Position numbers and translations under genes: made by a program
NCBI RefSeq assembly: GCF_010093535.1
Contig: NW_022985183.1
Coordinates: 842,956-906,955 of the forward strand
Direction of reading: 5' to 3'
Length of the DNA: 64,000 nt
From: Lindgomyces ingoldianus
Taxonomy: Eukaryota; Ascomycota; Dothideomycetes; Pleosporales; Lindgomycetaceae
The notes under the pieces: model-generated
Databases searched by the model: none
Seen by the model: the letters and a program-made list of their open reading frames with translations, nothing else
What the model was told of the DNA's origin: nothing
Shown here: positions 16,453 to 61,640 of the stretch, one piece after another
Layout: the number at the start of each line of letters is the position of its first letter
Position numbering within the stretch: the first letter of the stretch is position 1

Positions 16453-16454
16453 TA

Positions 16455-18233: not shown

Positions 18234-18392
18234 AATACTATAGAGGACCTAGATAACCGGTATAGTATTAGATTTTAGTAGAGGAGGCGGAAGACTAAGT
18301 AATAGCTTTAAGGGATAGAGTAAAGAGTAAAGTAATACTTAATAGTATTCTTTATAATAAGAATTTCTAGGTAAGAAGAGAAACTATCTAGA

Positions 18393-19009
18393 TGTTACAA
18401 TCCTTACTCCGGAAATAGCGTTTTCAGGAGTACGTCGGCCTATAGTGTTATGTTAACAGAAGGGGAAGGACTTAACTTAATTAAGTGTACAGTTTGTTAA
18501 GCAGAGTATGGGTTAAGAGGAGGTAGAGTAGGCAGGCTTGTAGTTTAACCTAGCAGCTGTATAAGGAGCTAGTAAACCTAATCTGTAGGGATAGAAATAG
18601 AGGTATATATAGTGCAAGATATATAAGGCAGCAGTGTCCTCTTTAGAAAGGTATTACAGCTTCTTAGTCTATAGAATAGGGGGTGTAGAGAATAGACTTA
18701 ATAGTAATCACAACCTTCTAACTATAGTTGTAAATAGAACTATATACATAAGGTTTACATGCGCTTACATGCGTTGCAGGTATTGCATGCACTGCCTGCA
18801 ACAGCCTACAATGCATGCACTGCTTGCACTGCTTAAGTCCTTATTAGATAGTGCACTCTGCTAGGCTTTTGTCTAAAAGCTAGAGCTATTTCTTATCTGT
18901 CCTGTTATGTAATCTGCCTAGCGTAGGGCTAAGCGTTTTCTATCTAACGTTGTTTAGGCTGTGTAGGACAGCTAGTTAGGTTATTATAGTCTAACTGTTA
19001 GCTATAACA
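18393..19009 (-). repeat. Z left LTR (3' LTR on the element's strand)
   Basis: 617 bases, fully RIP-like. It is 37 bases longer than the right LTR because of extra short TGCATGCA/CACTGC-type repeats near 18785-18830. An open frame of 76 codons inside it (18634-18864) is considered spurious. Confidence 0.9.
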
Positions 19010-19217
19010 CATAGGCTTCTCTTTTAGTTAGCGTCCTTACTGTTATGTTTTTTTTGTTATAAGTGTTAAATTTTTTTTTTAGCTAGTGTGTTCCCTTTTT
19101 TAAAGGCTTATTTAATGTTAATCTTTTTTAACTATGCCTTGCTAGGTTTCTTGCACTTCTGCTATTACCTACTGTTTTTGTACTATTGCTTATCTTAATC
19201 TTTTTTATTATATAAAA

Positions 19218-19765
19218 ATGCGTCCCTGTAGTCTGTGCTAGTCTTATAGTTCTTCCTGTGTAATGTCCTTGTTATTAGATAAGCGTGTAGAGTGTGTGCA
19301 AAAAAGTAGTTATTATAATGCCTTTATTTCTAATGCAGCCTAGGATTGTTTAAAGCGTAAAGAAAAAAAACTGCTTAGAGAGCTAGAAGCGGCTAAAAAG
19401 AAAGAGATAAAGAAAAAAAAAATGTAGAAGTAGGCTAAGTCTTTAAAGCGTCTTTAGTTTTTTATAGCTTAGCAGGAATAAGTTTAAAAGCAGTTAAAGG
19501 TTTTATTAGATTAAAAAGTAAAGTATCTAAAAAAAGACTTTTTATTGCTAGATAAGCTTAAAGCGCTTAAGGTAAAAGTAGCTAGTCTTCCTTCTCCTTA
19601 GCCTATATTAAAGAGTTGCAGACTTTCTACATTATAGCTAGCTAATGCTGCAGTTTTAACTAATAATAGTGTTTTCTAGTCTAGGGAGCTTTCTCTAGGG
19701 TAGTTTTACTTAGAAGGGACTTTAGATATTTATAAAAGGCCTAGAGAGCGTTTAACAAGCTTTTA
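19218..19765 (+). pseudogene. Antisense accessory ORF of Z: Cys-rich N-terminus plus coiled coil
   Basis: On the strand opposite to Z's gag-pol, one frame from the ATG at 19218 runs about 180 codons, broken almost only by TAG codons of the kind RIP makes from TGG or CAG. The N-terminus has regularly spaced cysteines (PCSLC, SSSCVMS, ECVQKS) and is followed by a long Lys/Glu-rich helix-like stretch (RELEAAKKKEIKKKK) and a second leucine/lysine-rich one (LLDKLKALKVKVA). This layout, CxxC-type knuckles then coiled coil, resembles small uncharacterised proteins that recur in fungal genomes. A TATATAAAA motif lies directly before the ATG. Its 3' end runs into the region of Z's chromodomain tail on the other strand, so the two ORFs converge and may overlap. 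Function unknown. It could instead be an older gene captured by Z. Confidence 0.55.
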
Positions 19766-19942
19766 ATAAGTTCTTAGGTGTTTTTACTAGTAAGCTATCT
19801 TTTCTATTTTACTAGGTACTTATTTCTTTTATAGTCTAAGATTTTTTTTACTTTATATTTTTCTTCCTCTCTCTTTTATCTAGTAGTTGTAAGTAGAATA
19901 GTTTTAGAAGCAAGTTTAAGCTTAAAGACATAGAACTAAAGG

Positions 19943-20208
19943 TGTTGAATAGACTCTCTGCTAGCTAGCACTTAGTGTTAGCAAATGCGTACAAGACAGA
20001 GAGGTTTGCACAGTGTAAACATTGCACAGGGGTGTTAGGTAACTAGTGTTAATTACTTCTTATTTTTTCTTTATATAGAGGAAAAGGGGGATATCTAGAT
20101 GTTTGCGCACAGAGGTTCGCGCACAAGCATTATGTAACATAGATACGTGATCCTGCTTGTGCGTAATCGCTTGTATCTAGGCTGCAACGCTGCTGCTGTG
20201 TACAGACA
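19943..20208 (-). repeat. X left LTR
   Basis: 266 bases, nearly colinear with the other three LTRs of the X/Y family. A purine-rich stretch beside it on the minus strand (AAAAAGAAAAG) fits a polypurine tract. Confidence 0.92.
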
Positions 20209-20887
20209 CTAGCAACTTTTCTTTTTATCTAAAGAGTTACCTTCTGTACGTGTTACCTTTTTTCTGTCTATGTAGGTTTATCTAATTATGTTCTGCCTTT
20301 ACTTTACTCTATTTATTAAGACTTGCCTTAGTAATGCTGTGTGTTAGAATAGGCTAGTTATGCTATATAAATAGCTTTTTTTTTCTTTATTCTTTACTTT
20401 CTAAGCTTTGCTGTATAATCCCTTAGCTTTTTTTTTTTTTATATAGTGCTAATAGTAACAGATCCTTATAATAAGAAAAATAAGTGTATATAATATAAAA
20501 AAAATAAAATAAAAGAAAATAGGCTTTATATAAAGGCATTATTAGTCTAGTTAGTCTAAGGCATCTTTGCACATAGAATTTAGCTAGTCTATAGATGCTT
20601 CTATCTAGACAGAGAGGCAGTTAGTTAGGACTAATAATTAAAAAGCCTAGTTTAGTGTTTTCTTTATATATACATCTACTAAGTTATTTTTACTATTAAT
20701 CTACTTTATTTTAGTAATTTCTCTTTTCTTATATAATTTATAAAGTAACATAATGTTAATTATAAGTTACTTTTTACTAGTAGTGCCTAGCTTAATAAAG
20801 TAATTATATAAAGACTTTAAATTTATGTAAATTACTACTAGAATTAGTAGTAGTTTAAGTGTTTATATAATTTACTATAAAGTTATA

Positions 20888-22019
20888 ACGTACCTAACAG
20901 GTTAGCTAGCCACACAGGTTAGCTAGCCACTTTTGCTAAGCCCCTACTAACCTCTACCTATCTACATAATGCCTTAACAACAACACTAGATTAAATCTTC
21001 TAAAGAATGTTAAATATAGCTTACTCTTTAGGCTCTTAAATAAGACTTAAAACTCTCCTTATAACATACTACAGCTATCTATAATGTCTCTTACACAACA
21101 CTAAGCAATTAACGCGCTAGACAGCCTTTACAAGCAGAATGCTAGCTTAAATTAAGGAATCTAACTAAGCTTAAAAAAAAGGTAGTTGTTAAGTATATAC
21201 TTAAGCTTATTACACACAGATTTCCCTCTAGGCTTATAGCTATAGCTAATATAGCTAATTCCTTACCTGTAGAGCGCAATCTAGGCCAGGTTAGCTTAAA
21301 CTAGACTAGTATGTAGGTTAAGCACTGCCCTAAGTTTATAATAAAGTTTAATTATAAGTATAATTATAAGAGAGCGCTTTATAAAGATCTAGAGGTTATC
21401 TAGGGCTAGTTTTACCTAGTAGCTAACATAAAAGCTAAGTACAGTATCTAGGATAAAGACAGGTATAACTTTAATAAGTTAGGCTTTATAATAAGCTAGA
21501 TATTAACTAGAGCAGTTGTTATAGCTTTAGAGAGATAAAGACAGCTAAAGGTAATATAGCAAGGTAATAAAGAGTAGATAATAGTTATCTAAAGTATTAA
21601 CGCAATAAGGTAGGCTATAAGATTATAAAGCTTTAAGCAGCAAATAAGGCTGCCACATAACATAGATTACATAAAAAAAAGCAGATTTAGGCAGAAAAAA
21701 CCTTAATAGTTAAGAATAGGGCTTGTCTAACTGCTTTAAAGGAGTTTAGAGCGCGTAGTAATAGGAAGAAGCTAAAGACGCAGGTGCGCGCTAAAAGAGG
21801 TAAGCTAAGTTAAAGGTAATGCAGGCAGTGTAATTAAACTAGGCATAACTTGCGTATGTGTAAGTAAGTAGCAGAAGTAGACTCTAAATAATATCTTATG
21901 TTATATTACTTTATACAGGGCTAAAGTAGGCTGTTTTGCGAGAGAATAGGGTGGTTTTAGTAGGGGCTTGGCAAAAGTGGCCGGCCAACCTGTGTGGCCG
22001 GCCAACCTGTTAGGTACGT
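20888..22019 (+). mobile_element. F1: internally deleted Fot1-like (pogo) DNA transposon
   Basis: 1132 bp between TA duplications. The terminal inverted repeats start ACGTACCTAACAGG and contain doubled GGCCGGCC-type blocks; the left copy is mutated to GCTAGCCAC while the right keeps GGCCGGCC. The same locus in Y reads AGTTATACTAAAAG, the empty site. The transposase relic begins at ATG 20969 and covers the N-terminal DNA-binding part and the segment around the first catalytic Asp, then jumps to a C-terminal tail with a degraded CCHC knuckle (QCRQCN, TRHNLRMC). The middle of the DDE domain is missing, so it is non-autonomous as well as RIP-mutated. Confidence 0.88.
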
Positions 22020-23278
22020 TACTAAAAGTAATTATATTATTAAACCTTCTAACTATTCTATATAGTTTACTAGTAAAAACACTTCTAGTTACTCTTTTAC
22101 ACTTAGTAGAATTCTAGTATATAATGTTGCCTAGTATTTTAAAGTAGTTACTTTACTTTATATAGTCTTTATTACTTAATATAATTAAAAATCCTAGCTA
22201 TAAGCTAAAGTTTTTATTATTAGTAAATAATTTATCTATAAAGATAAATAGCTTTATATAATTAAGCTGTAATAGTAAGAAAGTAAGACTATGCTTACTA
22301 TTATCTATTTACTATTAAATTTATGTGTTAAGTGTGTTAATATTATTATGTAAAGAGTTTATAGTTTATGTAGTAATAGATAAGTTAAATACTGCCTTTA
22401 GTTAATATATAGATGTAATATATACCTCTCTTACACATTACTTAATATATTATTATGCAGCATCTTTGTTCTTTAAGTTAATTATATAAAAGTAGCTTAC
22501 TTATTTCTTCTAAGTAAGAACTACTATGTTGTGTGTAAGTTTAATCTTTTTACTGTTAAACTTAATAGGCTACTTTTTTACTAAAATAGTTTTACCTTTT
22601 ATATAAAACTTTACTTTTTATAGTTTTTTTTTTTCTTTTTATGTAAAATTCTTTATTATAATGCTTAAAGTATTATCTAATTATAGGCTAGTAATACTAA
22701 AGGTGTGCTCTTCTTTATTAGTAATTAAAAAGTAGAGGTTATATAAAGAGATGTGCATGCGCAGCTTTTTTTTATAGTAGTTATAATATGTTTTAAACTA
22801 ATACAGTCCTAATTTAGTAGCTCTATATAAAGGTTGTACAACCTAGAGTATTATATTTAGTAGAAAGCTCTAGCGCATCTCCTTTAGTAGCTTTATGTAC
22901 AGCGTGCGCATAAGCTTATCTGTTAATTAGATGTATGCTTATGTAATATTACGCAGTTTAAAATGCATTCTATACATAGCTCTTAGGCTTGCTTTTATAG
23001 CTAGAAGTAGTCTCTAGCTTATCCTCTAAATAGTTAGTAACTAGGTAAAAATTTCTCCCTTCTTTTTATCTAAGTAGCTAGTAAACACTAGGCAGGATTT
23101 TTTATATAGTTAAGTTGTTTTGCCTTTTACTTTTTATATAAGGCAGAGGTTAAAAATCTAACCTTTGTGCCTTATTAAGTTATACGCTATAACCTTAAAA
23201 GTGCTGTTAGTAATTAAAGTGTTTATCTTTATATAGTCTAATTTCTTAAATAGTTTTCTAGGTGTAGTAATTACACTA

Positions 23279-23596
23279 TGTCACAGTATCCTCTCTAGAT
23301 CCCAGACATAACTGTATTAGACGCGTACTAGAGTATTATTAGTGCACGTCTAATATAAATATAACACAACATAGACATAAACTTAAGCACAAACTGCCTT
23401 AACACTAACTAAACCTAAAATAGGCTTAATTTATACTTAAAGCGCTTAAACTTTTAAGCTAAGTATTTAATTACTAATTTTTTTTTAAACTTTTCTGTTT
23501 CTTACATAACATCTTGTACCTACTATAATACTTTATGTAGTAATTAAACTAGACCTCTGTAAAGCTTTATAACCTTACTTATGCATAATTATAACA
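23279..23596 (+). repeat. A 5' LTR
   Basis: 318 bases, TGTCACAG to ATAACA, strongly RIP-mutated at its 3' end compared with the C 3' LTR. Confidence 0.92.
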
Positions 23597-25295
23597 TTAT
23601 GTTATGTTAAAACTCTAGCTAAGAATAGCTTCTAAATCTAATTTAATAAGCTTAGTACTTACATAACTCTAAGCTATTAAAGTAAGCTAAAAAGCCTTTT
23701 AAGAAGCGCTTACTTTATAGAAAAGCTGCTATATTATAAGCTTTAAAGCTTTTTAAAAAAACTTTAAAAAACAGCTTTATATTATTAAGTAGTTTATTTC
23801 TACCTTAACTTTTATTATAGTAGTAGGAACTAAGAACTTACTAGCCTTAAAGTCTACCTAAAAGTCTAGAGATAGCTTAACTTTCTTCTACCTAATACTG
23901 CTTACAACCTGTAACTTTTTTAACTTAGTAATAAAATCTAACTAACTCTCTAATCCTCTGCTGTTTAATAGAAAATAGAAAGACCTACTTTCTTTTCTAC
24001 ACAAGCTTTAATACAAACTTAAAGAAAACATAGACTAATTCCCCTTTAAACACTTCTAGTTACTATATGCCTACTTTTAACTTAACTATAATGTAATAGC
24101 CTTAATTAACTTACTAATAGATAAGAATATTATTAACCTAGATTAATTTATAGTGTTTCTATAAGTAACTTATAGAGACTTAAATAAAAAGTTAACAGCC
24201 TTAAGTTACCTAAACACTTTATAATAAAAAAAAAAAAGCTTTACTTTACACTTTACTAAGTTTTACTAACTTACATCTAATATAGGCCTAAATAAAATAG
24301 GTCTAATTATAGCCTTATATAACTCTCTCTTAACTAAACTGTAACGCGCTATAGTAGGAGAACCCCTTCTAAATAACTTTAATGCGTATGCAAACTTAAT
24401 TGCTACCTATAATAATAACATAAGGTTCCTCTCTGTACAAGCCCTAATACGCCCCTAAACTAGCGCAGTTGTAAATAAGGACCTTAATATAATAAAAATT
24501 AATTTAAATTATGCTTTAGTTAGTTCTAAAAAGTGTAAAAATTATAGAAAAAAAAGTTAATGTTTTAAGTGTAGTAAGCATAGTTATATCTTTTAAAACT
24601 ACTTTATTCCTCTTTTTTAAGTCTACATAAGTAGTGCTGCTAGTACTTATTAAAGATTTTTACTATTTTAATTTTATTTCTGTAAAAGCTTTAACTTATA
24701 TTTAAGCCTTAATCTTCTTTACTACTCTTAATGTAGCTGCAGCTATAGCAGTAGGAGCCTATAAAAAGGCTTATTCTAGGGCTAAGTTGCCCTCTAGGAC
24801 TAATTTAACACTAGATCTTTGCTAACTTATAAGCTAAGTCCCCTACTAATAACTAAAAGTACTAAGTTAATATTTTTATATATTTATAATAAGAAACTAT
24901 ATTAGCTTTAATATAAGCTTTTATTAACTTAAAAGTAAACAGTATAGGTTATATTAATAAAAAACTAGCGCATAAACTAAATCTTTAATTAATACTACTT
25001 ACCTAAATAATTTACTTAACTAGATTTAATAGAAAATAACTTAAAAAAGGTTTTATCTTTTATACTATAACTATTATAATTACCTACTAACACTATAAGA
25101 AGCAGATTAAACTCTATGTAATAAACATAAAATGTTATAACTTAATCCTAGAATAACTATAGCTATATTAGCATAAAGTTGCCTTTAATTACTAAGAGTA
25201 AGTTCTAAACTTTAACTTTTTTTAATACTAAGACATATGCTTATGCTTACACCTAAACAACACCTAAATAGCACTTAATATAGAAAGTCTCTAGA

Positions 25296-25613
25296 TGTCA
25301 CGGTATCCTCCCCAGATCCTAGACATAACTGTATTAGACGCGTACTAGAGTATTATTAGTGCACGTCTAACATAAACACAACACAACACAGACATAAACT
25401 TAAGCATAAACTGCTTTAACACTAACTAAACTTAGAACAGGCTTAATTTATACTTAAAGCGCTTAGACTTCTAAGCTAAGTATTTAATTACTAATTTCTT
25501 TCTAAACTTTCTTATTCTTTATATAATGTCTTATACTTACTATAATACCTTATGTAGTAATTAAACTAGACCTCTGTAAAGCTCTATAACCTTACTTATG
25601 CATAATTATAACA
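25296..25613 (+). repeat. B 5' LTR
   Basis: 318 bases, same family as the other five LTRs of A, B and C. Confidence 0.92.
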
Positions 25614-28600
25614 TTATGTTATGTTAAAACTTTAGCTAAGAATAGCCTCTAAATCTAATTTAATAAGCTTAGTACTTACATAACTCTAAGCTATTAAAGT
25701 AAGCTAAAAAGCCTTTTAAAAAGCGCTTACTTTATAAGAAAGCTACTATATTATAAGCTTTAAAGCTTTTTAAAAGAACTTTAAAAAACAGCTTTATATT
25801 ATTAAGCAGTTTATTTCTGCCTTAACTTCTGTTATAGTAGTAGGAACTAAGAACTTACTAGCCTTAAAGCTTACCTAAAAGTCTAAAGATAGCTTAACTC
25901 TCTTCTACTTAACACTACTTATAACTTATAACCTTTTTAACTTAGTAATAAAATCTAACTAACTCTCTAATCCCCTACTATTTAATAGAAAATAGAAAGA
26001 CCTACCTTTCTTTCTATGTAAGCTCTAATATAAACTTAAAGAAAACATAGACTAATTCCCCTTTAAACACTTTTAGTTACTATATACCTACTTTTAACTT
26101 AACTATAATATAACAGCCTTAATTAACTTACTAATAAATAAAAATATTATTAACCTAGATTAATTTATAGTGTTTCTATAAGTAACTTATAAAGACTTAA
26201 ATAAAGAGTTAACAGCTCTAAGTTACCTAAACACTTTATAATAAAAAAAAAAAGCTTTACTTTACACTTTACTAAGTTCTACTAACTTGCATCTAATATA
26301 GGCTTAAATAAAATAAGTCTAATTATAGCCTTATATAACTTCCTCTTAACTAAACTGTAACGCGCTATAGTAGAAGAACCCCTTCTAAATAACCTTAACG
26401 TGTATGTAAACTTAATTACTACCTACAATAATAACATAAAGTTCCTCTCTGTACAAGCCCTAATACACCCCTAAACTAGCACAGTTGCAAATAAGGACCC
26501 TAACATAATAAAAATTAATTTAAATTATGCTTTAGTTAGTTTTAAAAAGTGTAAAAATTATAAAAAGAAAAGTTAATATTTTAAGTGCAGTAAGCATAGT
26601 TATATCTTTTAAAACTACTCTATTTCTCTTTTTTAAGTCTACATAAGTAGTGCTGCTAGTACTTATTAAAGATTCTTACTATTTTAATCTTATTTTTATA
26701 AGGGCTCTAACTTATATTTAAGCCTTAATTCTTTTTACTACTTTTAATGTAGCCACAGCTATAGCAGTAGGAGCCTGTAAAAAGGCTTGTTCTAGGGCTA
26801 AGTTGCCCTTTAGGACTAATTTAACACTAAATCTTTGCTAACTTATAGGCTAAGTCCCCTACTAATAACTAGAAGTACTAAGTTAATATTCCTATATATT
26901 TATAATAAAGAACTATATTAGCCTTAATATAAGCTTTTATTAACTTAGAAGTAAATAGCATAGGTTATATTAATAAAAAACTAGCGCGTAAACTAAATCT
27001 TTAATTAATACTACTTACCTAAATAATTTACTTAACTAGATTTAATAGAAAATAACTTAAAAAAAGTTTTATTTTTTATACTATAACTATTATAATTACC
27101 TACTAACACTATAAAGAGCAGATTAAACTCTATGTAATAAACATAAAATGTTATAACTTAATTCTAGAACAACTATAGCTATATTAGCATAAGGTTGCTT
27201 TTAATTACTAAAAGTAAGTTCTAAACTTTAACTCTTTTTAATGCTAAGATGTATACTTACGCTTACACCTAAATAATACCTAAATAGCACTTAATATAGA
27301 AGGTTTCTAGACCTACTTTTTAATAACTTAAAAAAAAACTACTTAAGTAAGGCTAATAAGCTAGGCCTTTTACTAAGATAGGCTATATAAAATAATTTAA
27401 TAACTACTTAAACTTAAAAAAGAAAAAGCCTTTAAGAAACCTTTACCTACTTAATTTAAACATAAACTAGGACTTAAACAGTAGATAAACATCTGCTACA
27501 TAGAACCTGCCCTATTTATAACCCTAGCTTAATAACTAGATTATAAAATCTACGCAGTTACAATTTCTAATATAGACTAAGCTTTAGCTCCCTAAAAACA
27601 CAATAACTTAAAGATAATAGTCCTTTAAGACTACTATAACTTGTTACATGTCTTTTTTTAAAACAAGTCTAATAAGCTTCTAATATAACATCTGTATAAT
27701 TACTAGATAACTTTTAAGCCTAGTAAATAACTTAGTTATAGGCTACTATATAAGATGTTGCTAAATAAATTAAAAGTGCTTTAAAAATACTTTAATAAGA
27801 ACCTAAAAAAAGAGTTTATTTAAGCTAGCTTCTTACTAGTAGTGTTACCTATACTATTTATAAAAAAACTTAAAAGTAGGCTTTAATTTTGTGTTAACTA
27901 CTAAAGACTAAACACTATTACTATTAAAAACTAATACCTAATTCTTTTTTTATAGAAAACCCTAAGCTAACTAAGTAAAGTAAAGTATTTTATAAAGTTA
28001 GATATTATTACTACCTTTAATAAGCTAAAGATAGTAAAGAGTAATAAGTAGCTAATAGTGTTTTAGACCTAATATAGACTATTTAAGTACCTAGTAATGC
28101 CCTTTAGCTTAGCTAACACGCTTAGTACTTTTTAACATTTTATAAACAACTTACTCTAACCCTACCTAGATGTGTTCTGCACTGCGTATATTAATAATAT
28201 TCTAATTTACAGTAATAGCCTTTTAGAGCATAAACAGCATGTACGCCTAGTGCTAAAGGCTATAGAAGAAGCAGGTCTGCAACTTAATATAGATAAATGT
28301 AAGTTCTACTAATTAAAGGTTACATATTTAGAATATGTAATCTCTACAGATAGCATCTAAATAGACCTTATTAAGGTTTAGACTATGCTAAATTAGCAAT
28401 ACTTAAAAGACATAAAGAACATTTAAGCCTTTATAAAATTTGCTAACTTTTACTAATAATTTATTAATAACTTTTTATAGCTAGTAAGCCCTATAATTAT
28501 ACTTACTAAAAAAGAGGTTTAATTTAACTTTAACTTAAATTACTAATAGTTCTTTAACTAGCTAAAGAAAGCCTTTACTAAAGCCTTAATACTCTACTAC

Positions 28601-30641
28601 TTTAACTTTAAACTACTAATACTTATAGAAGCTAATGCCTTAGACTACATAGTAGCAGGAGTTCTTTTCTAGACTAAGCTAGACAGGACTATTAAGCCTA
28701 TTACATACTTCTTAAAAAGAATAAGTTCTGCAGAAGGCAATTATAAGATCTATAATAAGAAATTACTTGCTATAGTACACTACTTTAAATAATAGCAACT
28801 TAAACTAGAAGGTGCAGCGCATCTAATATAAGTTCTATCTAACTATAAGAACTTATAGTACTTTGTAACTATAAAATAACTTAGCTACTAACAAGCCTAT
28901 TAGTCTAAATACTTATTCTATTTTAATTTTAAGATTACTTATTATTCTAGTTAAGACAGAGGGAAACTAGATGCTTTTATAAGGTAATTCTAAAACATCC
29001 CTGCTTAGAAAAAAGTGTAAAAGGCTTAACACTAAACTTTACTTTAACCTAAGCTATTTTTAGACCTTAACTTAAATAAAATAAATTAAATAATTAATTA
29101 AATTATTACTAATAAGTATCTAAATAATAAATTTATCTAAAAAACCTTAGACCTGCTCTAAAATAGCGCTAGTTAGTTAAAGAAGGTAACACTAGCTAAC
29201 TATAAAAACTAAAATAGTAAGCTATATTACTATAACTAACTTATAATCTCTAATTCTAATAAACTAAGAATTAAACTACTCTAAATTATATATAACTTGC
29301 CTGTTAGAGAACACCTAGGTAGAGGAAAGACTCTTAACCTACTACAGAGAGAGTACTACTAGCCCCGCATGTTCTATACTGTACGCTAATACATATTATG
29401 TTGCTATACTTGCTATAAAGTAAAGGCTTTTTAAAAAAAGTATAATAGCCTACTTAAACTACTCTTAATCTTTAAATAAGCTTAAAAAAACATATTAATT
29501 AATTTTATTATAAACTTACTTTTATCTAAAGAGTACATAAATATTATAGTAGTTGTTAATTACTTAACTAAGTATTAACACTTAATACTATGTTCCTCTA
29601 TAACTGCCCCTAATATAGCCTAGTTATTCTACTAATACGTATAAGTTTACTATAGCCTGCCTAACATAATTATATTAGATAGAGGTACACAGTTTGTCTT
29701 AGCCTTCTAGGACAAACTCTGTAAATAGCTCTAAATTATCCCCTATCTATCTACAGCTTTTTACCTAGAGACTAACAGCTAGACTAAGAATATAAACACT
29801 ATAATAAAATAAGTTCTATAAGCGTACACAAACTACTAGTAAGATAACTAGGTAAAATAGTTAGCTATAGCATAGTTTAAAGCTAATAACATAACATCTA
29901 AATTAACATAAGTATCCCTGTTCTTAGCAAACTACAGATACTACCTCTAAATAAGATTTAAACTACTTATAAATACTCTTTAACTAACTTATTAATCTGT
30001 ATAAGTAATAGATATAAATAGACTTATTAATAAAATTTAAAATATATCTAAATATGTTTATAAAAAGCTTATATAGGCTTAAGCTTTTTAATAAGAGTAT
30101 GTAAACTAATTCTAAACCTCTGCCCCTGCGTATGCAGCTAGCAAGAAGGTCTAGCTAGACACTAGAAATATCTAAATAAACTAATAATTAAAGAAACTTA
30201 ATTAAAAGAACCTTAGCCCCTTTATAGTAGCTTATATAGTCTTATTACATGCTTACTAATTAATCCTACCTAATAGCATAAAGATACACCCTGTGTTCTA
30301 CATATTGTTGCTGCGCTAAGTAGCCTCTAAATCTAACTATCTACCTAGACAGCTAAACCTACTACCTAAACCTGTTATTATAAATAATAAACTAGAATAT
30401 ATTATAAAAGATATTAAATAAATTTAGTTTAATAAAAAGAAACATATCTACAAATACCTTATAAAATAGACTAGATACAACAAACTGTTATAGAAACCTA
30501 CAGAAGCCTTGTAAGAGAACTCTGCAGTAACCTAATTCTATGCCTAATACCTATCTAAACTAAACCTATACCCTAATAAAAACAACCTAATGCTAAAACT
30601 ACTAATATAAAGAATTCTCTTTCTAATAAGAGGGGGGGTAC

Positions 30642-30959
30642 TGTTACAGTATCCTCCCTAGATCCCAGACATAACTATATTAGACGTGTACTAAAGTATT
30701 ATTAGTGCACGTCTAACATAAACACAACACAACATAGACATAAACTTAAGTATAAACTGCCTTAACACTAACTAAACCTAAAATAAGCTTAATTTATACT
30801 TAAAGCGCTTAGACTTCTAAGCTAAGTATTTAATTACTAATTTTTTTCTAAACCTTTCTGTTCCTCACACAACATCTTGTACTTACTATGATACCTCACG
30901 TAGTAATTAAACTAGACCTCTGTGAAGCTCTATAACCTTACTCATGCATAATCGTGACA
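30642..30959 (+). repeat. B 3' LTR
   Basis: 318 bases, preceded by the polypurine run AGAGGGGGGG. Its end (ATCGTGACA) is among the least mutated in the family. Confidence 0.92.
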
Positions 30960-34611: not shown

Positions 34612-35456
34612 CACTATCTATACAGAGCTTAATAGATAAGGCCTAATTATCCTTCTTTTTCTAGGTTAGGAATACCTAGTCTAGACTTTATGCAGGTTTT
34701 CTTTGCCTTTTACTTCTCCTAGTATCTATATCTTCCCTTTGCACTAGTGCAGCATTGCTATTCTAAGGGGCTTAGTCTATAGTAGGCTTTAGTTCTGCCT
34801 CTGTAACATTTTTATAGGGCTGTTTTTTTTTCCTCTTCTTTAGAGGATCTTTTTATATAGGGATTAGTTTATCTAGGTTATCTGTTGCAGGTAGGTTATC
34901 TTTCTTCTTTTCTCTATAGTACAGTTTAACCTGCGTATATTAGAGCTTTAGTAGGCTATTTTTTTTCTTAATAATAATGTCTCTTTTTTTAATACTTTTA
35001 ATTTTATATAGGCTAGTCTAGCCTTTTTTCTCTCTTTATGCTATAATTTTTAAGCTAAGGGGGAGGTTAAGAACTTTATGTGTTATAAAGCTATTATAAG
35101 TGTTAATTACATAATTAATGTTTACTTTTACATAGTTCTTTTAAAGTATCTTTATTACTTTTTATATAGCACTTACTTATGTAATAATGTCTTGTAATAG
35201 CAGAGAGTTTAGGTTAATTCTTAGGTATGCTCTAAAGACTAGCAGCGTAGGTACTAGACTGTGTAGGCTAGCTGTGTTGTTTAGAGCCTTAACTGCTATC
35301 TGCAGGATAGCCTTATTATCTGTATAGTTACCTAGCTTAGTCTTTAGGATGTTAAACGCTTGTTAGAGAGGTGTGTGCGCGCGCTTAACCTTTCTAACTG
35401 CCTAATGTGCTTTTATAGGCATCTGCCTACATGTAGCTCTTATAATCTTTACATAA

Positions 35457-35722
35457 TGTTGAATAGACTCTCTGCTAGCTAGCACTTAGTGTTAGCAAAT
35501 GCGTACAAGACAGAGAGGTTTGCACAGTGTAAACATTGCACAAAAGTGCTAGGTAACTAGTGTTAATTACTTCTTATTTTTCCTTTATATAAAGGAAAAA
35601 GGGGATATCTAGATGTTCGCGCACAGAGGTTCGCGCATAAGCATTATGTAACATAAATATGTGATCCTGCTTGTGCGTGATCGCTTGTATCTAGGCTGCA
35701 ATGCTGCTGCTGCGTACAGACA
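35457..35722 (-). repeat. Y left LTR
   Basis: 266 bases, TGTTGAAT to ACAGACA. Confidence 0.92.
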
Positions 35723-38700: not shown

Positions 38701-41331
38701 TTATAGTTAAAGTAGGTGTTATTTTTAATTATAAACTTAAATCTTTATAAAGCCTAGTTATATAATTAGTAAAGGTAGCAAAACTTTTTAATCTCTTCTA
38801 GCACTACAGCATTAACATTATAGCTAGCGCTAGTTAGCATTTTCTAGAGTCTCTCTATGCAAAGGTGTCTAAATTAGTAGTAGAGGCAGTAAAGTTTTAA
38901 TTTAGTAAAAAAAGACATAAATTCTTCTTTACTAATATTAAAAAAAAAGTGTTTTTATTTTTATATAATAAAGATAGTAGTTTTGTCTTTATGTATAATA
39001 ACATTTAAAATGTTGTTAAAGTATGCACCTATTTAGTTTACGTCTACTAAAGATAGTAGGAACAGTGTTAGAGTGTTTAAGATGTAATACATTACATTAC
39101 TAACTAGGTTAGTAATTTATATAGTACTAATTAATTTTATTAATTTTTATTTTTTAAAGCTAATACTTTTTTTTCTTAGTGTTTAGTCTACTTTTGTATA
39201 AGGGAATTCTTGTAGGTATGCTTTAAGTTATAACTTCCTTACAGTAGAGATTCTTACTACGCTAGTATTCTATAGTTTACCTTAGTATACTATACAGTAT
39301 TAATCTTTAAGGATAAACTGTTCTGCGTATTCTTTAGGTTCTAGGCTGTAGATGTCCTCTGCAGTTGCGCAGTAAAGAAATGTAGCATTAGTAAGGTAGT
39401 TAATAATTTTTTTACTTTTCTTTTTATTTAAGTTGTTATTATTATGTAACTTCTTTTTTTTTTACTTTAGTTTACCTTTAAACTTTTAAATGTATATATT
39501 TACCTCTTTACATATTAGTGTCTTGTTATAGAATTCTTTATATAAAAAGATATATTAGCATTTTACATAAAATTAATCTATGTAAGAATAATTTATTAAC
39601 TAACATTCTTTTTTATAATAGATAAAGCATTACTTTAATTATGTAAAGGACTATAGTTTAAATAATCCTTTATATCCCCTTAGGCTTTTTTTATGTTATT
39701 AATAGCTATGTGTATGTAGTAAGCTATATTACTTATTAGTGTAGTACACATCTTAGAATTTATTTATAAATACATTATTCTATTAATTAATTATAACTTA
39801 AAGTGCTAAATAAAGGTTACTATATAGTGCCTTATATATAAGCTTAATTAAGAACATTACTTATTTAAGTTTAAGTTGCCTTTAGCATGCTTATATAATA
39901 GTAGTGTAAAGTAGTATTTTGCTTTAGAATTATAAACTAAGAGCTTTTTATGTAAGAGTAAGTTTATTAATTATAGCTTTAAAAGCTTTATATAAAGTTT
40001 TTATAAAGTTTTTTTATTTACTTTATGTAAAGCTTATTATTGTTTAATCTGTCTAATACTAGTTATAGTTTATATTAGTATTAAAGTAATTACTAAGCTG
40101 CTTATATAGTAACTTTTATAATTATCCTAGACTAATATTATAAAGGTAAAACATGTGTACGCGCTTTTTAAAAATAGTAAGGTGTTAGTAGAGCTTAATA
40201 AATACTATAGCCTTATTAGCTAGAATATTATATAGTTACTCTATATAGTTGTTCTTTTTTCTTTATGCCTTCTAAAATTATATAACCTTCTTAGGCGTAA
40301 GGTTCTCTGCTGTAATATCTTGTGTAGGTAAAAGTTAGTGTAAATTATATAGTAATTAAATTGTATATAGTAGGTATAAGCTTTAGGGAATCTTATGTAG
40401 AGCTATAGCTATAGGAATATGTAGCTGCCTAGTTGTGCTCTTGTATAGTAAGCTATTATAAGGTAGTTATACTAATTATAAAGGAAGTATTAGGTTTATA
40501 AGTAATTTATATAGAGACATCCTCTATTATGTTAAGACTAGTAATAGTAGTAATAGTTTTATATAATGCTTTAGTAAAATAGTAAACATGTGTTCTTTTT
40601 TTATAAGTTTATATAGTGTAGTAGCCTTTATTATGTCCTTTTTAAAGCTAATACTTTTATTTTATAGAGTAGTAATTAGTTTTTATAGAAATAGTTAGCT
40701 AAGATCTTTAAAGTGTATAAGCTTTTACTTTATAAAGTTATTTTAAAAGTTCTTAAGTGTACATATATCTGTTATGCTTAACATGTAAAGTTTTATAATT
40801 AAGTTAGCTATGTATAAATTAAGCTTCTTTTTAAGTGTGTTATTTAATAGTTTAATTTTATTTACTTAATTTTTAATATTTATCTACTTTACTAGGGTCT
40901 TTGCTAAAATGCCTATAAAAAGTATATATTAGTTATATGTTAATACATTATGCTAGCTAGTTATAGATAAAGCTAGTGTTGCTTATTACTTTATAGTAGT
41001 TAGTTATGTGTTATTGCGCGCTGTCTTACTTCTTGTTGTACGCTGCCTCTAAACAGCCTTATATAAAAAGATAAAACAGACCTCTTAGCATTAAATAAGC
41101 ACTACTATTTATATAATACTTTTAAATAGTATTATATAGATAGGTTTCTTACTCTTACTTAGGTAACTAAATAAAGATTTATAGCTACTTATATATAAAT
41201 TAGACTTTATTTTTACTTTTGCTAATTTATAGTTAAAGTAGTAAAGAAAAAAATTCTTTTTATACATAAACTTTTAAATAAAAAGGTATAAAAAAAGCTT
41301 TTTTTTTTATAGTATTTAAACTACTAATTAG
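35723..41331 (-). pseudogene. Y gag-pol, RIP-inactivated Ty1/copia polyprotein
   Basis: On the minus strand the integrase core lies at about 38050-38700 (read as VLYVINVDTLF, then ELLDYIMHN, then VKALND and LVPTLLVF), matching the layout of fungal Ty1/copia integrases. The start of the reverse transcriptase lies at about 37300-37620, with a degraded FNSRFVDE-like segment and KSRLV-like segment. The gag/protease part would lie at about 39000-41300 but is too decayed to define. Every frame has many TAG/TAA codons. Recognition of the copia class comes from integrase motif order, so I am less certain of the limits of each domain. Confidence 0.7.
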
Positions 41332-41597
41332 TGTTAAATAGACTCTTTACTAGCTAGCACTTAGTGTTAGCAAATGCGTATAAGACAGAGAGGTTTGCAC
41401 AGTGTAAACATTGCATAAGGGTGTTAAGTAACTAGTGTTAATTACTTCTTATTTTTCCTTTATACAGAGGAAAAGAGGGATATTTAGATGTTTGCGCACA
41501 GAGGTTCGCGCACAAGCATCATGTGACATAGATACGTGATCCTGCTCGTGCGTGATCGCTTGTATCTAGGCCGCGACGCTGCTGCTGCGTACAGACA
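41332..41597 (-). repeat. Y right LTR
   Basis: 266 bases. The outer end keeps GCTCGTGCGTGATCGC and GGCCGCGACGC, which are mutated in the left LTRs. Confidence 0.92.
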
Positions 41598-44482
41598 CAT
41601 AAGCTTAAAAATCCTCTAAAGCAAAGTTTGTACTAGAGTTATGCATAATATAGTCTAGGGGTTCTTAATAGGTGTTAATCTAGTATTTACACAGTGCATT
41701 CTAGGTATTTTATGTAAACATAGATTTTAGGAATATAGCAGCCTAAAATAATGTGTTTACATTAATAACATATAAGACATTTTTATTATTAATTTATATA
41801 ATATTAATAATAACTTTATAGTTAAAGTAGGTGTTATTTTTAATTATAAACTTAAATCTTTGTAGGGCTTAGTTGTATAATTAGTAGAGGTAGCAGAACT
41901 TCTTAATCTCTTCTAGCACTGCAGCATTAATGTTGTAGCTAGCGCTAGTTAGCATCTTCTAGAGTCTCTCTATGCAGGGGTGTCTAAATTAGTAGTAGAG
42001 GTAGTAAAGTTCTAATTTAGTAAAAAAAGACATAGATTCTTCCTTACTAACATTAAAAAAAAAGTGTTTTTATTTTTATATAATAAAAATAGTAGTTTTA
42101 TCTTTATGTATAATAACATTTAGAATATTGTTAAAGTATGCCCTAAGTTAGTTAGCATCTGCTAGTAATAGCAGGAATAGTGTTAAAGTCTCTAAAATGT
42201 AATACATTACATTACTAACTAGGTTAGTAATTTATATAGTACTAATTAATTCTATTAATTTTTATTTTTTAAAGCTAATACTTTTCTTTTTTAGTGTCTA
42301 GTCTACTTTTATATAAGGGAATTTTTGCAGGTATGCTTTAAGTTATAACTTCTCTATAGTAGAGATTCTTACTACGCTAGTATCCTATAGTTTACTTTAG
42401 TATACTGTATAGTATTAATCTTTAAGGATAAACTATTCTGCGTATTCTTTAGGTTCTAGGCTGTAGATGTCCTCTATAGTCACACAGTAAAGAAATGCAG
42501 CATTAGTAAAGTAGTTAATAATCTTTTTACTTTTTTCTTTATCTAAGTTCTTATTATTATGCAACTTCTTTTTCTTCTACTTTAGTTTACTTTTAAACTT
42601 TTAAATATACACATTTACTTTCTTATATATTAGTGTCTTGTTATAGAATTTTTTATATAAAAAGATATATTAGCGTTTTATATAAAATTAATTTATGTAA
42701 AAATAATTTATTAACTAATATTCTTTTTTATAACAGATAAAGCATTATTTTAATTATATAAAAGACTATAGTCTAAATAATCCTTTATATCCTCTTAGGC
42801 TTCTTCTATGTTATTAATAGCTATGTGTACGTAGTAAGCTATATTACCTATTAGTGTAGTACATGTTCTAAGATTTATTTATAAATGCATTATTTTATTA
42901 ATTAATTATAGCCTAAAGTGCTAAATAGAGGTTACTGTATAGTGCCTTATATATAAGCTTAATTAAAAACATTGCTTATTTAAGTTTAAGTTACCCTTAG
43001 CATGCTTATATAATAGTAGTATAAAACAGTATCTTGCTTTAAAATTATAGACTAAGAGCTTTTTATATAAAAGTAAGTTTATTAATTATAGCTTTAAAAG
43101 CTTTATGTAAGGTTTTTATAAAGTTTTTTTACTTACTTTATATAAAGCTTATTATTGTCTAATTTATCTAATACTAGTTATAGTTTACATTAGTATTAAA
43201 GTAATTACTAAGCTACTTATACAGTAACTTCTATAATTATCCTAGACTAATATTATAAAAGTAGAACATGTGTGCGCGCTTTTTAAGAATATTAGGAAAG
43301 ATGCTTACATATAATGCCTTAAAAATAGTAAGGTGTTAGTAAAGCTTAATAAATACTATAGCCTTATTAGCTAGAATATTATATAGTTACTTTATATAGT
43401 TATTTTTTTTTCTTTATGCCTTTTAAAATTATATAACTTTCTTAGGTGTAAAGTTCTCTGCTGTAATATCTTATATAAGTAGAAGTTAGTATAAATTATA
43501 TAGTAATTAAATTATATGTAGTAGGTACAAGCTTTAGAGAATCTTATACAGAGCTGTAGCTACAGGAATATGTAGCTGCTTAGTTATACTCTTATATAGT
43601 AAGCTATTATAAGGTAGTTATACTAATTATAGAGAAAGTATTAGGTCTGTAGGTAATTTATACAGAGACATTCTCTGTTGTGTTAAGACTAGTAATAGTA
43701 GTAATAGTTTTATATAATGCTTTAGTAAGATAGTAAATGTGTGTTCTTTTTTTATAAGTTTATATAGTGTAGTAGCTTTTATTATGTCCTTTTTAAAGCT
43801 AATGCCTTTATTCTGTAAAGTAGTAATTAGTTTTTATAAAAATAGTTAGCTAAGATTTTTAAAGTGTATAAGCTTTTACTTTATAAAGTTATCTTAAAAG
43901 TTTTTAAGTGTACATACATCTATTATGCTTAACATGTAAAGTTCTATAATTAAGTTAGCTATATATAAATTAAGCTTTTTTTTAAGTGTGTTATTTAATA
44001 GTTTAATTTTATTTACTTAATTTTTAATATTTATCTGCTCTACTAGGGTCTTTGCTAAGATGCCTATAAAAGGTATATATTAGTTATACATTAATACATT
44101 ATGTTAGCTAGTTATAAATAGAGCTAGTGTTGCTTATTACTCTATAGTAGTTAATTATGTGTTGTTACGCGCTATCTTACTTCTTATTATACGCTGCCTC
44201 TAAACAGCCTTATGTAAAAAAATAAAACAGACCTTCTAGCATTAAATAAGCACTACTATTTATATAATACTTTTAAATAGTATTATATAGACAGGTTTCT
44301 TACTCTTACTTAGGTAACTAAATAGAGATTTATAGCTACTTACACATAAATTAAACTTTATCTTTACTCTTACTAATTTATAGTTAAAGTAGTAAAAAAA
44401 AAAATTCTTCTTATACATAAACTTTTAAATAAAAAGGTATAAAAAAAGCTTTCTTTTTTATAGTATTTAAACTACTAATTAG

Positions 44483-44748
44483 TGTTAAATAGACTCTCTA
44501 CTAGCTAGCACTTAGTGTTAGTAAATGCGTATAAGACAGAGAGGTTTGCACAGTGTAAATATTACATAGGGGTGTTAGGTAACTAGTGTTAATTACTTCT
44601 TATTTTTCCTTTATATAGAGGAAAAGGGGGATATCTAGATGTTTGTGCACAGAGGTTCGCGCACAAGCATCATGTGACATAGATACGTGATCCTGCTCGT
44701 GCGTGATCGCTTGTATCCAGGCCGCGACGCTGCTGCTGCGTACAGACA
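44483..44748 (-). repeat. X right LTR
   Basis: 266 bases. The outer part keeps CCAG and GCCGCGACGC sites that are mutated in the left copies, so RIP is weaker here. Confidence 0.92.
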
Positions 44749-47700
44749 AAAGGTGTATTTACATTTCTTTTAGTAATTTAAGTTTACAAATGCTAGGGCG
44801 TGTTTATATAACCTAGTATAGTTCTATATGTTTCTCTACTAACTTTTTAGAAGGTCTTAGTGTTTTAAGGTCTTTTATGTCTAAATATATATAATTATTT
44901 AGGTGTATTTTTAGTGTAGGTTTTTTTTTTATTTACTACTTTTTCTATAGCTTCTTAGGCTAATTAGGCTTCTTTAGTAAGTTTCTAATGTAGTTCTAGA
45001 AGTTTAGTAGTGTGATCTATAGCTTCTAAAGAGTTAGTTAGTTGCAAGCTGTAAAGCTTATATTATAAAAAGTATCTAAAATTAGCTTTGTATAGGGTTT
45101 CCTTAGTTATAGCTAATTCTAAGGTATTAATAATAAACTGTGCTATTAGTAGCTATTTTACCTAATCTATCTACTTATATAAGATATATTTTTATAGAAA
45201 TTTTTCTACTTTTGTGTTTACTCTTTCTGTTTGTCTATCTATTTATAGGTAGTAGGTAGTAAAGAGTTTGTAGTTAATTCTAAAATGCTTAATAAAGGCT
45301 GTCTAAAACTTACTAGTAAATAGTTTATTACAGTTAGAGATAATAACCTTAGGGCAGCTATAAGTAGTAAAGACATTTTTCTTTAGTTTAAATATAAATT
45401 TCTTTACTATAATGCTTTTTTTTTAATAGCTATAGATAGACAAACTTAGTAGTTTTATTAATAACTTATGTAATTATGTTGCATAGTCTTTTAGTGCTAG
45501 GTTTTTATAATAGTAGTAGTCTAGTAATAAAATCTATAGTTATTATAGCCTATAGTTAAACTAGCGCTGTAATTAGTTAGAGTAATCTATAAGGCTTATA
45601 ACACTAAAGATTATTTTTATTACAAGTGTTACATTCCTGTAGGACTTTAGTACATAAGTGTTTTAGTTAGAGTATTTCTTAAAGTATAGTAATTTTAATT
45701 TTTTTCTGTAGTAATCTAATTACTAGGTGTCTAAACATAGGAGCTTTATAATATTCTTTTATTAAGTTTTTCTATTCTTATTTAACTATTATAAGGGAAC
45801 ATAGTAGTTTTTTTTAGTTAGGTCCTTTATAAATTAGTTCTTTAGTTATTTCTTTAAAGATTGTAAATTTCTCTAAGTTTTTCTTATTTACTTTAAAGTA
45901 GTCTACACGCCTACTTAAAGCATTAGCTTATTAGTTGCTGCTTTCTGCTACATGTTTAATAATAAAGTTAAACTAGGCAAGTTCTATAGCCTATTGTATA
46001 TGCATTAGTAAAAGCTTTTTAGTAGTAAAGAAGGTAATAAAGTTTATGTAATTAGTAAAAATTATAAATTATTATTTTAAGCTTTAAAGCTTTACTTTCT
46101 AGTTTCTATATATATTAACTATAGCTTTTAGTTCTTTATTAGGGATAGTATATTTTTGTTCTAGTAGCGTAAACTTTACTAAGTAGTAGGCTACTAGATG
46201 CTATTGCCTATTTTCTTGTTTTTAGAAAAGTGCAGCTCCTTCTGCTTTTAGAAAGGCATCTGTGTGTACTTTTGTCTCTAGTGTAGAGTTATACATTTTT
46301 AGAATAGGGTAGCTTGTTATTATTTACTTTAGCTTTTAAAAAGCTTCTTTTATTTCTGTTGTTTATTAAAATTTCTAAGTTACTTATTCTTTTAAAGTAG
46401 CGTTAGTAAGGGGGAGCGCTATTTTTAAGTAATTCTTAATTATTCTTTGTATATATTCTATAAGGCCTAGAAATCCTTTAATTTTAGTTACTATTATTAG
46501 TGTTAGCTAATTAAGCACTTTACTTACTTTAGTAGAGTCTATCTTTATTTTTTCTTTATTAATAATAAATTCTAGGTATTTAGTTTTCTGTATATTAAAC
46601 TTGCATTTCTCTAGTTATAAATAAAGTCTATATTATTAGAGTTAGTTAAGTATAAGTTTTACTTTAGATACATAGTCTACTTAGTTCTTTTTAGTGTATA
46701 TTAGAACATTATCTAGGTACACTAGTATAAATATGTCTAAGTAGGGGTTAAGTGCAGTGTTAATAACTCTTTAGAAAGTTACTAGGGCGTTTGTTAACTT
46801 AAATAGCATAATAAAAAGTTTATATAGTCCTTCTAGAGTTTAAAAGGCTATTATTTATTTATGTTCTTTCTTAATCCTAATTTTATTAAATCTATCTTAG
46901 ACATTAAACTTAGTAAAATGCTTAGTTTCTTTAAGTTAATTTATAATGTCTTAGATAATTAGTAGGGGGTATTAGTCCCTTATAGTGTTGTTATTTAAAG
47001 TTTAGTAGTTTTAATATACTTTTACCTTACTGTTCTTCTTCTTAGCAAAAACTACTGCTAATGCTACTAGACTGTTGCTTTCTTTAATGTGTCTTTAGGC
47101 TAGCATCTTGTCTATGTACTCCTATAGAGCGTCTTTTTAAGCTTTTATTAAGGGCTGTAGTTTGTAAGTTTTTAGTTATAAGTTTAGTTTAAAGTTAATA
47201 GTGTAGTCCTAGAGTTAGTGTAGTAGCAGTTCTTCTAGATCTTCTAGGGTTTTAAACATGTTTTTGTAATCTAAGTATTCCTCTAGTAGTTTAGTTGTTT
47301 TATAGGTTATTTAATAGATCTTAACCTAATTAAAGTCTTATTTTTTTTTAAATTCTTTAAAGGAGATTTCCTCTAGTTCTTTCTTTATTAGGTAGACAGC
47401 CTAGGCTTCTAGTTTCTAATAGGGGAACCTTTTTAGTTTTTCTTGTAGATAGGTTTTATTTAAGTCTTTATAAGATACTGCTTGTACTGCTTCTGCACTA
47501 TCTTAGTTAGTTAAGGACATAGTTTACTAGTTAATTACTAAGTTATGTTTATAAAGCTAGTTATAGCCTAATATTGCTTAGTATTTACCTTTTAATAGCA
47601 GTATGTTAAAAGATATCTAGTTGTTAGTTTCTTCTACTTTAGTAATAAGTTTTTTTATTTTAAGTTAAATTTATCCTACTCTATATTCTATTAATAAGGC

Positions 47701-50213
47701 GTTAGCTAGGGATACTCTAAAAAGGTTTTTTTTTTTTTAGAAGAGTATGTTGTTTTAATTAACCTATCTAGAGTTAATTACTATAAATGTACATCTGCTG
47801 TCTATTAGGGCAAGTCCTGTCTATTTCTAGCCTAGGCGTTAGAGGGTAATTTTAGTTGTTAGGCTTTAGCCTAGTTCTTATCTAACTATAATAAAGATAT
47901 AGAGTTTATAAGGTGTTTCTTTATAGTTTCTTTTGTTATCTTTATTAACAGCCTTAGCTACTTTTTTATATTTAGTAATTTAATCTAATTATACCTTATA
48001 TTTTTAATGTCTTAGTATTATGCATTCTAGTATAGTACACTAGGCGTCTTTTATCTTGTAGTAGTATAGCATCTAGTTATTTTATTAGTGTGCTTTTTAT
48101 TAGAAGTAATAGAACATGCATGCTGTTCTATTGTTGCATTTAGTCTATAGTTCTTGTTTGTAGTCTATGCTGTTCCTGCAATGGAGGCAGTGTGGCATTT
48201 TGCAGGTAGATGTTATGCTAGTTAGTGTGTTAGTTTTAGGTGCGCTTTCTTATGTTCTACTTAGCTACTAGCTAGCCCTATGCTTAGTTAGCTAGTGTTT
48301 AATGCAATACTTATTACTGCATAGGTACTAGGTATATAGGCATTTCTTAAGGTTGTTCTGTACAGGTATTAGCTAAACCTGTGTCTACCTAGGGTATTCC
48401 TTAGTCCTAATAATTTGCAACAGGTGGCTTTAGTAGGTACACTAGAACTTATTATGTTGCTTACTTTTATAGAGAATATAGTATCCTTTGTCTTATTAAG
48501 TTTCTAGATCTTTTTAAGTAATAGCTAGTGTAGGGGGAGGTGTGTTAGTTTATTTTTAGTATAGCTCTAGTATTAGTAACAGCGTGCATTACTAGTTAGA
48601 GCCTTTTTCTTTGTTAAGAATCTTTTAGAACATTTTCTATTATTCCTCTATGTTTATAACTGTGTAGTGTGTTTTAGCAATTTTCTTTAGTATACTATAA
48701 GTTTTAACATTATTATTAATGTGTAATTTATATATTAATTTTTTATAAACTCTTACTTTATGTGTATTACTACACTTCTAGCAGTTACTGTATGTAAACT
48801 AGTATCTTAGTTCTTAAAAAAAAATTCCTGTTATTAGTTGTTTTAAGAGAAAAAATTTTTTTTTTAATGTTAGCAACGTATGTTGTAGCTTAGGTGTAGC
48901 TTTACTATCCTTTATAAGTAGTAGCTTACTCTAGTGCCCTAAAAACTTTATTGTTGTCTTATACTTTAACTTCCTAGTATTCTATAAGGCATCCTTTAGA
49001 TTTGTAATTGTCCCTGCATTGCTAGTAGAGATGTCTGTCTAGCCTATCTAAGATTTCTTGTCCTGTTAGGCCTTATTTTATATGCATTACTTTTATAGTT
49101 AATTAATTATCTTTATTCTCTAGTTGTTTAGAGTTTAGGCATTTTTAATAAAAGTAACCTACTTTTTTATAGTTAAGGCATGCCTTTTTTTTAAGCTATT
49201 TCTTTTATTTCTTGTTTAAGAGTAGCCTTACACTTTTAAAGGTATTACTCTTTTTTTTAGAGAAGCTACACATGTGTTTAGTGTAACTAAGGTCTATAAG
49301 CTTACTGTTAGCCTGTAGGACTTCTTTTTTTTTTTTTAAAACTAGTTAGCTTTTTTAGTTATCTAGCCTTTTTTTTTCTTACTACATTACTTAGCATGTT
49401 TTTTATTATAAGTAAGTGCTTTCTTAACATAGTTTTTAAAGCTTTTAAGCTTTTTATTATAAGTAAACTTATCTTTAATAGTATTTAAGAGTCTTTTATA
49501 GAACATTTATTTTACAGCTTTCTTGTCTGTTTATCTATAGATGGCTAGCAGTTTCTTAAAGCAGGCTGCATATTATTAGACAGAGCTATTACTTTATTAG
49601 AGAGTGTTTATTCTGTTAACTACTTATTTTTTTTTATTAACTAGCTTATAAATTATAGTTAAAGCTGTTTTAAATAAATTAAGGTTGTTAAAAACTTTCT
49701 ATGTCTCTAGTAGTAAAAGTTTACTGTTTACTTTATAGTTTATCTAATTATTAGCGTAAAGTTAGAACTAGATAGTAGGTAATTCTTCTAAGTATAAGCT
49801 TATTTATAAAATTATTTCTTTATTTATTCTAAAGGCACCTTTATTATATTACATGTAGAGGTAGCATTTAGTAAAAAAAGGTTTTAAGTCTTTAGCAAAG
49901 CTATTAAATGCTTTAGAGGGGGCTAGGCATAGGGTTTTTTTAGACTTAATACTAGTTTTTTTTTAAGTAATATTTCTAAGGTTAGCTACTTCTAGCTAGA
50001 GGGCTTAGATCTAGTAGATGTTTAAGGGTTTTTACTGTGCTTAAAGCTAGAGAGCTTGCTTAAGCTGTTTAAGCATATTTTAAAGATAAAGTATCTGCTA
50101 ATTCTGTGCTTTTTTAGTTACTATAGAAGTCTAGCTAGTGCTAGCAGCTAAAGCACCTGTTATGCTAATGTCTAAGGTAGTAGTAGCTATACTTTATAGG
50201 TAGTAGTAATTAC
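44749..50213 (-). pseudogene. Z gag-pol, RIP-inactivated (main part)
   Basis: Read on the minus strand through many stops. A CCHC-like knuckle lies near 49170. The reverse transcriptase has YLDNVLIYTKKN near 46690-46730, where the catalytic YxDD has become YLDN by a G-to-A change. The integrase catalytic core (PKVIISNCNKLFTSKFW and YYL.IDRQTERVN) is near 45220-45380. The GPY/F-like tail (LRPSKKL, KLLKEM) near 44790-44880 is cut by X, and the pol tail with a chromodomain-like ILDYKRNKYLVK resumes at about 19942 down to 19740. Gag, RNase H, integrase and chromodomain are in the normal Ty3/gypsy order. Confidence 0.8.
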
Positions 50214-50793
50214 TGTTATAATTCTTACTCTAGAAATAGTGTTTTTAGGAGTATGTTAGCCTATAGTGTTATGTTAACAAAAGGGGAAGGACTTAACTTA
50301 ATTAAGTGTACAGTTTGTTAAGCAGAGTATAGGTTAAAAGGAGGTAAAGTAGGCAGGCTTGTAGTTTAACCTAGTAGCTGTATAGGGAGCTAGTAAACCT
50401 AATCTATAGGGATAGGAATAGAGGTATATATAGTGCAAGATATATAAGGCAGTAGTGTTCTCTTTAGAAAGGTATCACAGCTTCTTAGTCTATAGAATAG
50501 AGGGTGTAGAGAATAGACTTAATAGTAATTACAACCTTCTAACTATAGTTGTAAACAGAACTATATACATAAGGTTTGCATGCGCTTGCATGCGTTGCAG
50601 GTATTGCATGCACTGCTTAAGTCCTTATTAGATAGTGCACTCTGCTAGGCTTTTGTCTAAAAGCTGGAGCTATTCCTTATCTGTCCTGTTACGTGATCTG
50701 CCTAGCGCGGGGCTAAGCGTTTTCCATCCGACGTCGTTCGGGCTGTGTGGGACAGCCAGTTGGGTCATTACGGTCTGACTGTTGGCCGTAACA
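50214..50793 (-). repeat. Z right LTR (5' LTR on the element's strand)
   Basis: 580 bases matching the left LTR. The outer 110 bases or so (from about 50680) keep CCG, CGG, TGG and GGCC sites that are mutated in the left copy, so RIP fades towards this edge. Confidence 0.9.
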
Positions 50794-50798
50794 CTAGA

Positions 50799-61450: not shown

Positions 61451-61640
61451 CATCAGTTTAACGAGGCAGAAGTGGCAAATCTACAAGGCGAGTAGAACTT
61501 TCTAGAAGTAGCCGTCTCACCACCAATTCGATCTAGAGCATGCTCGGAGCTTCGCTGTGGCAAATCCACGGGCTAAGTTATATAATCATTCTGATCCCCG
61601 ACCCTCTATGAAATAGAGGGAATAATAAATATATGATAGT
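61451..61640. other. 3' flank of the NACHT-ankyrin gene
   Basis: No open frame of note. AATAATAAATATATG just beyond the stop codon of the minus-strand gene may include its 3' processing signal when read on that strand. Confidence 0.3.

Follow-up and report, generated by a model that had tools for sequence, protein, structure and literature searches.

The window (the whole stretch of DNA analysed, 64,000 nt) comes from Lindgomyces ingoldianus, RefSeq assembly GCF_010093535.1 (68.4 Mb in 99 contigs), contig NW_022985183.1, positions 842,956-906,955 of the forward strand. Across about 16-60 kb of the window the GC content is 20-36%, down from about 50% over large parts of the left flank, and no open frame of at least 110 codons lies between 16 and 61 kb. 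The block around the nest described below is AT-rich, heterochromatin-like fungal DNA. A frame of 945 aa at 2276-5113 resembles NRPS-like adenylation-reductase enzymes. Another, at 61606-63529, has ankyrin-like repeats, recognized by eye, and ends in a stretch of Ns; its repeat units of about 100 bp are nearly identical to each other.

Within the block is a nest of five LTR elements (Z, X, A, B and Y) and one small TIR transposon (F1). The base element is Z (18393-50793). It is flanked by the matching duplication CTAGA at 18388-18392 and 50794-50798, has LTRs at 18393-19010 and 50214-50793 and contributes 7590 bp of its own sequence; its assignment to the minus strand is tentative, drawn only from weak RNase H pieces below the Pfam cut-off. 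Inserted in Z is X (19943-44748; AAAGG at 19938-19942 and 44749-44753), with LTRs at 19943-20208 and 44483-44748 and its own sequence split into four pieces. X in turn holds three insertions. The first is F1, a 1132-bp TIR element (20888-22019) between TA dinucleotides at 20886-20887 and 22020-22021. The second is A, a Ty3/gypsy-like element on the plus strand (23279-34611; CACTA at 23274-23278 and 34612-34616) with LTRs at 23279-23596 and 34294-34611. The third is Y, of the same family as X (35457-41597; CATAA at 35452-35456 and 41598-41602). A itself contains B, a plus-strand copy of its own family (25296-30959; CTAGA at 25291-25295 and 30960-30964). X, Y, F1, the segments of X and the duplication of Z are given without strand. 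Outside the nest lie a relative of F1 (51622-52755) and C, a third copy of the A/B family (53809-59473, plus strand, TSD GCTAG). The apparent host of C is a repeat of fold-back type, a relative of 16156-17524, whose arms lie at 53149-53808 and 59474-59893.

Direct terminal repeats, TG...CA ends and a short target duplication mark A, B, C, X, Y and Z as LTR retrotransposons, and each of the five in the nest has an identical 5-bp duplication on its two sides. Once nested insertions are subtracted, A, B and C measure 5664, 5664 and 5665 bp, and X measures 6188 bp versus 6141 bp for Y. The original prediction, made from the DNA itself, thus holds for the nest and its coordinates, for every duplication (including the TA of F1), for the agreement of sizes within families and for the four levels: Z; X; A, Y and F1; B. 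These levels were built up by independent insertions of three LTR families (Z; X/Y; A/B/C) and a TIR element with a TA target.

What kinds of elements are these? Judged by sequence, A, B and C are Ty3/gypsy-like. B retains a 50-aa piece of reverse transcriptase (RVT_1, 28160-28309; 32.4 bits, cut-off 29.6) and beside it RT_RNaseH (26.5 bits, cut-off 24.8). The search for an integrase downstream used a 30-aa piece (29486-29575), which matched no Pfam family. A, B and C share a Ty3-like RT and an RNase H with chromodomain-bearing Ty3/gypsy elements, and by eye their tail resembles a chromodomain; they differ in that the piece searched has no chromodomain by Pfam, and the 16 matches to PF00385 in the genome include none within the window. 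Z yielded three weak RNase H matches in two minus-strand pieces (E 0.0016-0.019), all below the cut-off. Nine pieces of the X/Y family gave no convincing Pfam match to an RT domain, and none of the 39 RVT_2 matches in the genome falls within the window. F1 has the inverted repeats and TA target duplication of Tc1/mariner-like elements. A look for a DDE transposase found stop-to-stop pieces no longer than 52 aa in F1 and 58 aa in its relative, and the one piece of the relative that was scanned had no Pfam match; F1 is at most a non-autonomous TIR element. Of the two inverted repeats of F1 (20888-22019), one retains GGCCGGCC-like sites and one is mutated; in the relative at 51622-52755 both are retained. 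The tips of a single copy, then, need not be alike.

The nest can also be read against copies that lack the insertions. For F1, A, Y and B, unoccupied paralogous sites can be found inside the window, in Y, C or B. Among genome copies, with Y, B and C from the window included, the site of X in Z is empty in all four copies examined (nine were fetched), the sites of A and of Y in X are each empty in 7/7, the TA site of F1 in X in 6/7, and the site of B in A in 14/14. The empty sites carry a single copy of the target and the host carries two. All nested insertions have both a duplication of their own and an empty site in a paralogue. By nesting, X is later than Z; F1, A and Y are later than X; and B is later than A. 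To this extent the predicted order of events stands, but the claim that it is fixed was too strong. F1, A and Y are unordered among themselves and B, merely later than A, is unordered relative to Y and F1, so that 12 histories fit this partial order. Nesting is common in this genome: at 8 of 20 A-family loci (a raw count) the left flank lies directly in another of the window's families or in another A-family copy. One locus (L001, 1-9901) has A in A in A, three copies serially within 9.9 kb; at another (L007, 1-9901), an A-family copy lies within an oppositely oriented one.

The elements are heavily marked by one class of mutation. Across the six LTR pairs, that of C included, we counted 187 transitions and no transversion in 2066 positions. 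Comparisons of whole copies gave 371-481 transitions, with 9 transversions in 5596 positions for X/Y and 3-5 per approximately 5025 positions for A/B/C. CpA, CpT and CpG contexts are all mutated, not CpA alone. In the LTR elements the TA/AT ratio lies at about 1.7-2.0, versus 0.6-1.1 in the flanks (1-5000, 12-16 kb and 60.2-64 kb). Since insertion, then, the LTR pairs have taken C-to-T and G-to-A changes on both strands of the repeats, with transversions rare, which is the signature of repeat-induced point mutation (RIP), a fungal defence that mutates repeats. The genome encodes two cytosine-5 methyltransferase genes (L058 and L059). One has a frame of more than 1000 codons and its best match is PDB 9baq, which we take to be DIM-2; the second might be RID. 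A repeat of about 200 bp at 51032-51232, for which 38 of the 42 matches listed are other places with 94-99% identity (40 of 712 candidates were scored), resembles a MITE or a short LTR that escaped RIP, as is expected of a repeat below the RIP length limit.

The changes are not spread evenly along the LTRs. In the first half of the LTR, summed over the six pairs in the window, the 5' copy retained C or G at 66 sites and the 3' copy at 16; in the second half the counts were 15 and 90. All six pairs show this polarity in both halves (Fisher p 1e-20). It is seen in B, Y and A, deep inside the nest, and likewise in Z and C. Internal comparisons of A with C, A with B and B with C, which served as a control, were without such asymmetry. 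Ten further A-family copies in the genome were chosen by their RT domain, of which two had no 3' LTR at the expected place; the remaining eight, all with equal TSDs, gave 105:11 in the first half and 16:134 in the second (p 1e-42), with 1 transversion in 2544 positions. Twenty copies were also chosen by LTR similarity, and the 13 with a partner LTR at the expected distance gave 173:10 and 19:210, with 1 transversion in 4134 positions and equal TSDs in 12 (L004 is unequal). This choice is biased toward 5'-LTR-like sequence, and the result is weaker evidence than that from the RT-chosen copies. In the 11 A-family pairs from the window and the RT-chosen set, 5' LTRs have a mutated fraction of 0.16 and 3' LTRs one of 0.57 at positions 1-30; at positions 301-318 the values are 0.68 and 0.09, and the two curves cross near the middle of the LTR. 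Because the two LTRs were identical at insertion, the same sequence is mutated where it faces inward and spared at the tip. We conclude that the RIP changes are polar and that the outermost part of each copy is spared.

Why should the tips be spared? RIP with an edge effect is the likely cause of the LTR pattern. RIP would recognize homology over a tract, and the homology of each copy would end abruptly at its tips because each copy has different neighbors. With homology lost there, mutation would drop within roughly 150 bp of the end of the element. Tips and target duplications would stay legible, which would explain how target duplications survive beside ruined elements. We think it highly probable that separate insertions built the four-level nest and that RIP, acting with an edge effect, spared the element tips.

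By the same mechanism, though on weaker grounds, an insertion that preceded mutation of its host would also make two new edges in the host. X retained C or G at 307 sites and Y at 199 in their comparison, so that X, though it must predate Y, is less mutated. The pieces of X adjoining its LTRs are even with Y (31:28 and 122:110). The excess lies in the segment between F1 and A (22022-23273; 78:35), where it increases toward A, and in the segment between A and Y (34617-35451; 61:16), where it has maxima at both ends. Set against other copies of its family, X gave values of 0.38, 0.38, 0.50, 0.77 and 0.76 in successive bins from F1 to A, and of 0.89, 0.76, 0.54, 0.67 and 0.81 from A to Y. We tested 19 sides of junctions, two of them again with more references; references were few and sites were treated as independent. 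X shows sparing to either side of A, keeping 20/24 and 31/34 sites within 150 bp (others 0.48 and 0.56). Its sparing beside Y is weak, to the left (31/39; others 0.59) and, within 75 bp only, to the right (14/19; others 0.50). The same tests found no sparing of X beside F1, of A beside B or of Z beside X. Among A-family hosts outside the window, two of nine sides were spared (L016 left and the copy A#1 at L001), the remainder not at p<0.01.

Read simply, these results have A, and probably Y, arriving in X ahead of its mutation, with B and F1 landing in hosts that had already been mutated. As X is spared at A but not at F1, A not at B, and Z not at X, rounds of RIP probably fell between insertions; we regard this as a hint, not proof. 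The main rival to this reading of RIP timing is a length effect of trapped pieces. The extra C and G in X near A and Y would then be uninformative about timing, short trapped tracts being poorer targets for RIP, or would be due to chance. The spared pieces of X are indeed short, 1252 and 835 bp, and the spared copy at L001 is a 1.4-kb piece. We hold this a serious contender, if somewhat short of an even bet: the piece of X from its LTR to F1, 943 bp with the LTR included, lacks sparing, and the excess in the spared pieces increases toward the A and Y junctions.

The polarity in the LTRs could be real and have a cause other than loss of homology, such as deamination of methylcytosine by a DIM-2-like route or chromatin whose boundary falls before the element ends. 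The long cytosine methyltransferase gene and the mutation of all dinucleotide contexts would suit such a cause. We consider it unlikely. B, Y and A are flanked by AT-rich DNA on both sides and yet are polar, a pattern not expected from a boundary around the block as a whole, and that mutation depends so sharply on the tip of each element itself speaks for homology.

RIP with an edge effect also bears on dating. LTR divergence is 8.1% for Z, 6.4% for X, 10.4% for A, 10.7% for B and 9.0% for Y; the older Z and X together stand at 7.6% versus 10.1% for the younger A, B and Y (Fisher p 0.065). This leans opposite to the order of nesting, as the edge effect dominates. Dating the pairs with C/T and G/A sites masked, proposed along with the original prediction, leaves 0 differences in 2066 positions and cannot settle the order. 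In a plain nest diverging by ordinary mutation since insertion, LTR pairs that are 89-94% identical would normally be dated as old. That account is very improbable: it is contradicted by the absence of transversions among the 187 differences and by the polarity, and Z and X, though older, show no greater divergence than the younger elements. LTR divergence in this nest mainly records position, not age, and in RIPed genomes it is unfit as a clock, even for relative order. An assembly artefact, with repeats collapsed or misjoined, is not a credible account of the nest either: the families are very numerous (900-1225 seed candidates per LTR query), but every joint carries a matching TSD of its own and has its empty counterpart elsewhere, and the copies differ at 7-10% of positions, enough to be separated.

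The edge polarity matters more than the nest. The two LTRs of an element place one sequence in two settings, which supplies an internal control, and their polarity lets the reach of RIP from the end of homology be measured from genome sequence, with no cross. Should a survey bear out the sparing of host flanks, nested insertions could be used to time transposition bursts relative to rounds of sex. Our literature search, which covered papers outside subscription, found no report of outer/inner LTR polarity under RIP.

Nested clusters of RIPed LTR elements are already known, and the present nest is one more good example. The accessible part of a study of Mycosphaerella graminicola (Zymoseptoria tritici) describes 78 nested clusters of transposable elements, one of them spanning 47 kb, founded on an LTR element and showing a TSD of 5 bp; it reports RIP-type transitions, with one element RIPed inside while its LTRs escaped, and already states that RIP inflates LTR ages (PMC4522978). 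Nested clusters, an LTR base and RIP are common to both cases, as far as that part of the study goes; it makes no mention of polarity within LTRs, which is shown here, with empty sites used joint by joint. In Neurospora crassa, the portion of the work available to us relates the number of RIP mutations to the length of homology, 220-520 bp, in closely placed repeats (PMC4858203); those are laboratory constructs, and ours are native LTR pairs. For the crapaud element of Podospora anserina, the sections at hand report that the LTRs of full copies are RIPed and that solo or fragment LTRs mostly are not, a difference attributed to size (PMC10787394). RIPed LTRs in full copies are found there as here; those sections describe no outer/inner polarity such as that of the present nest.
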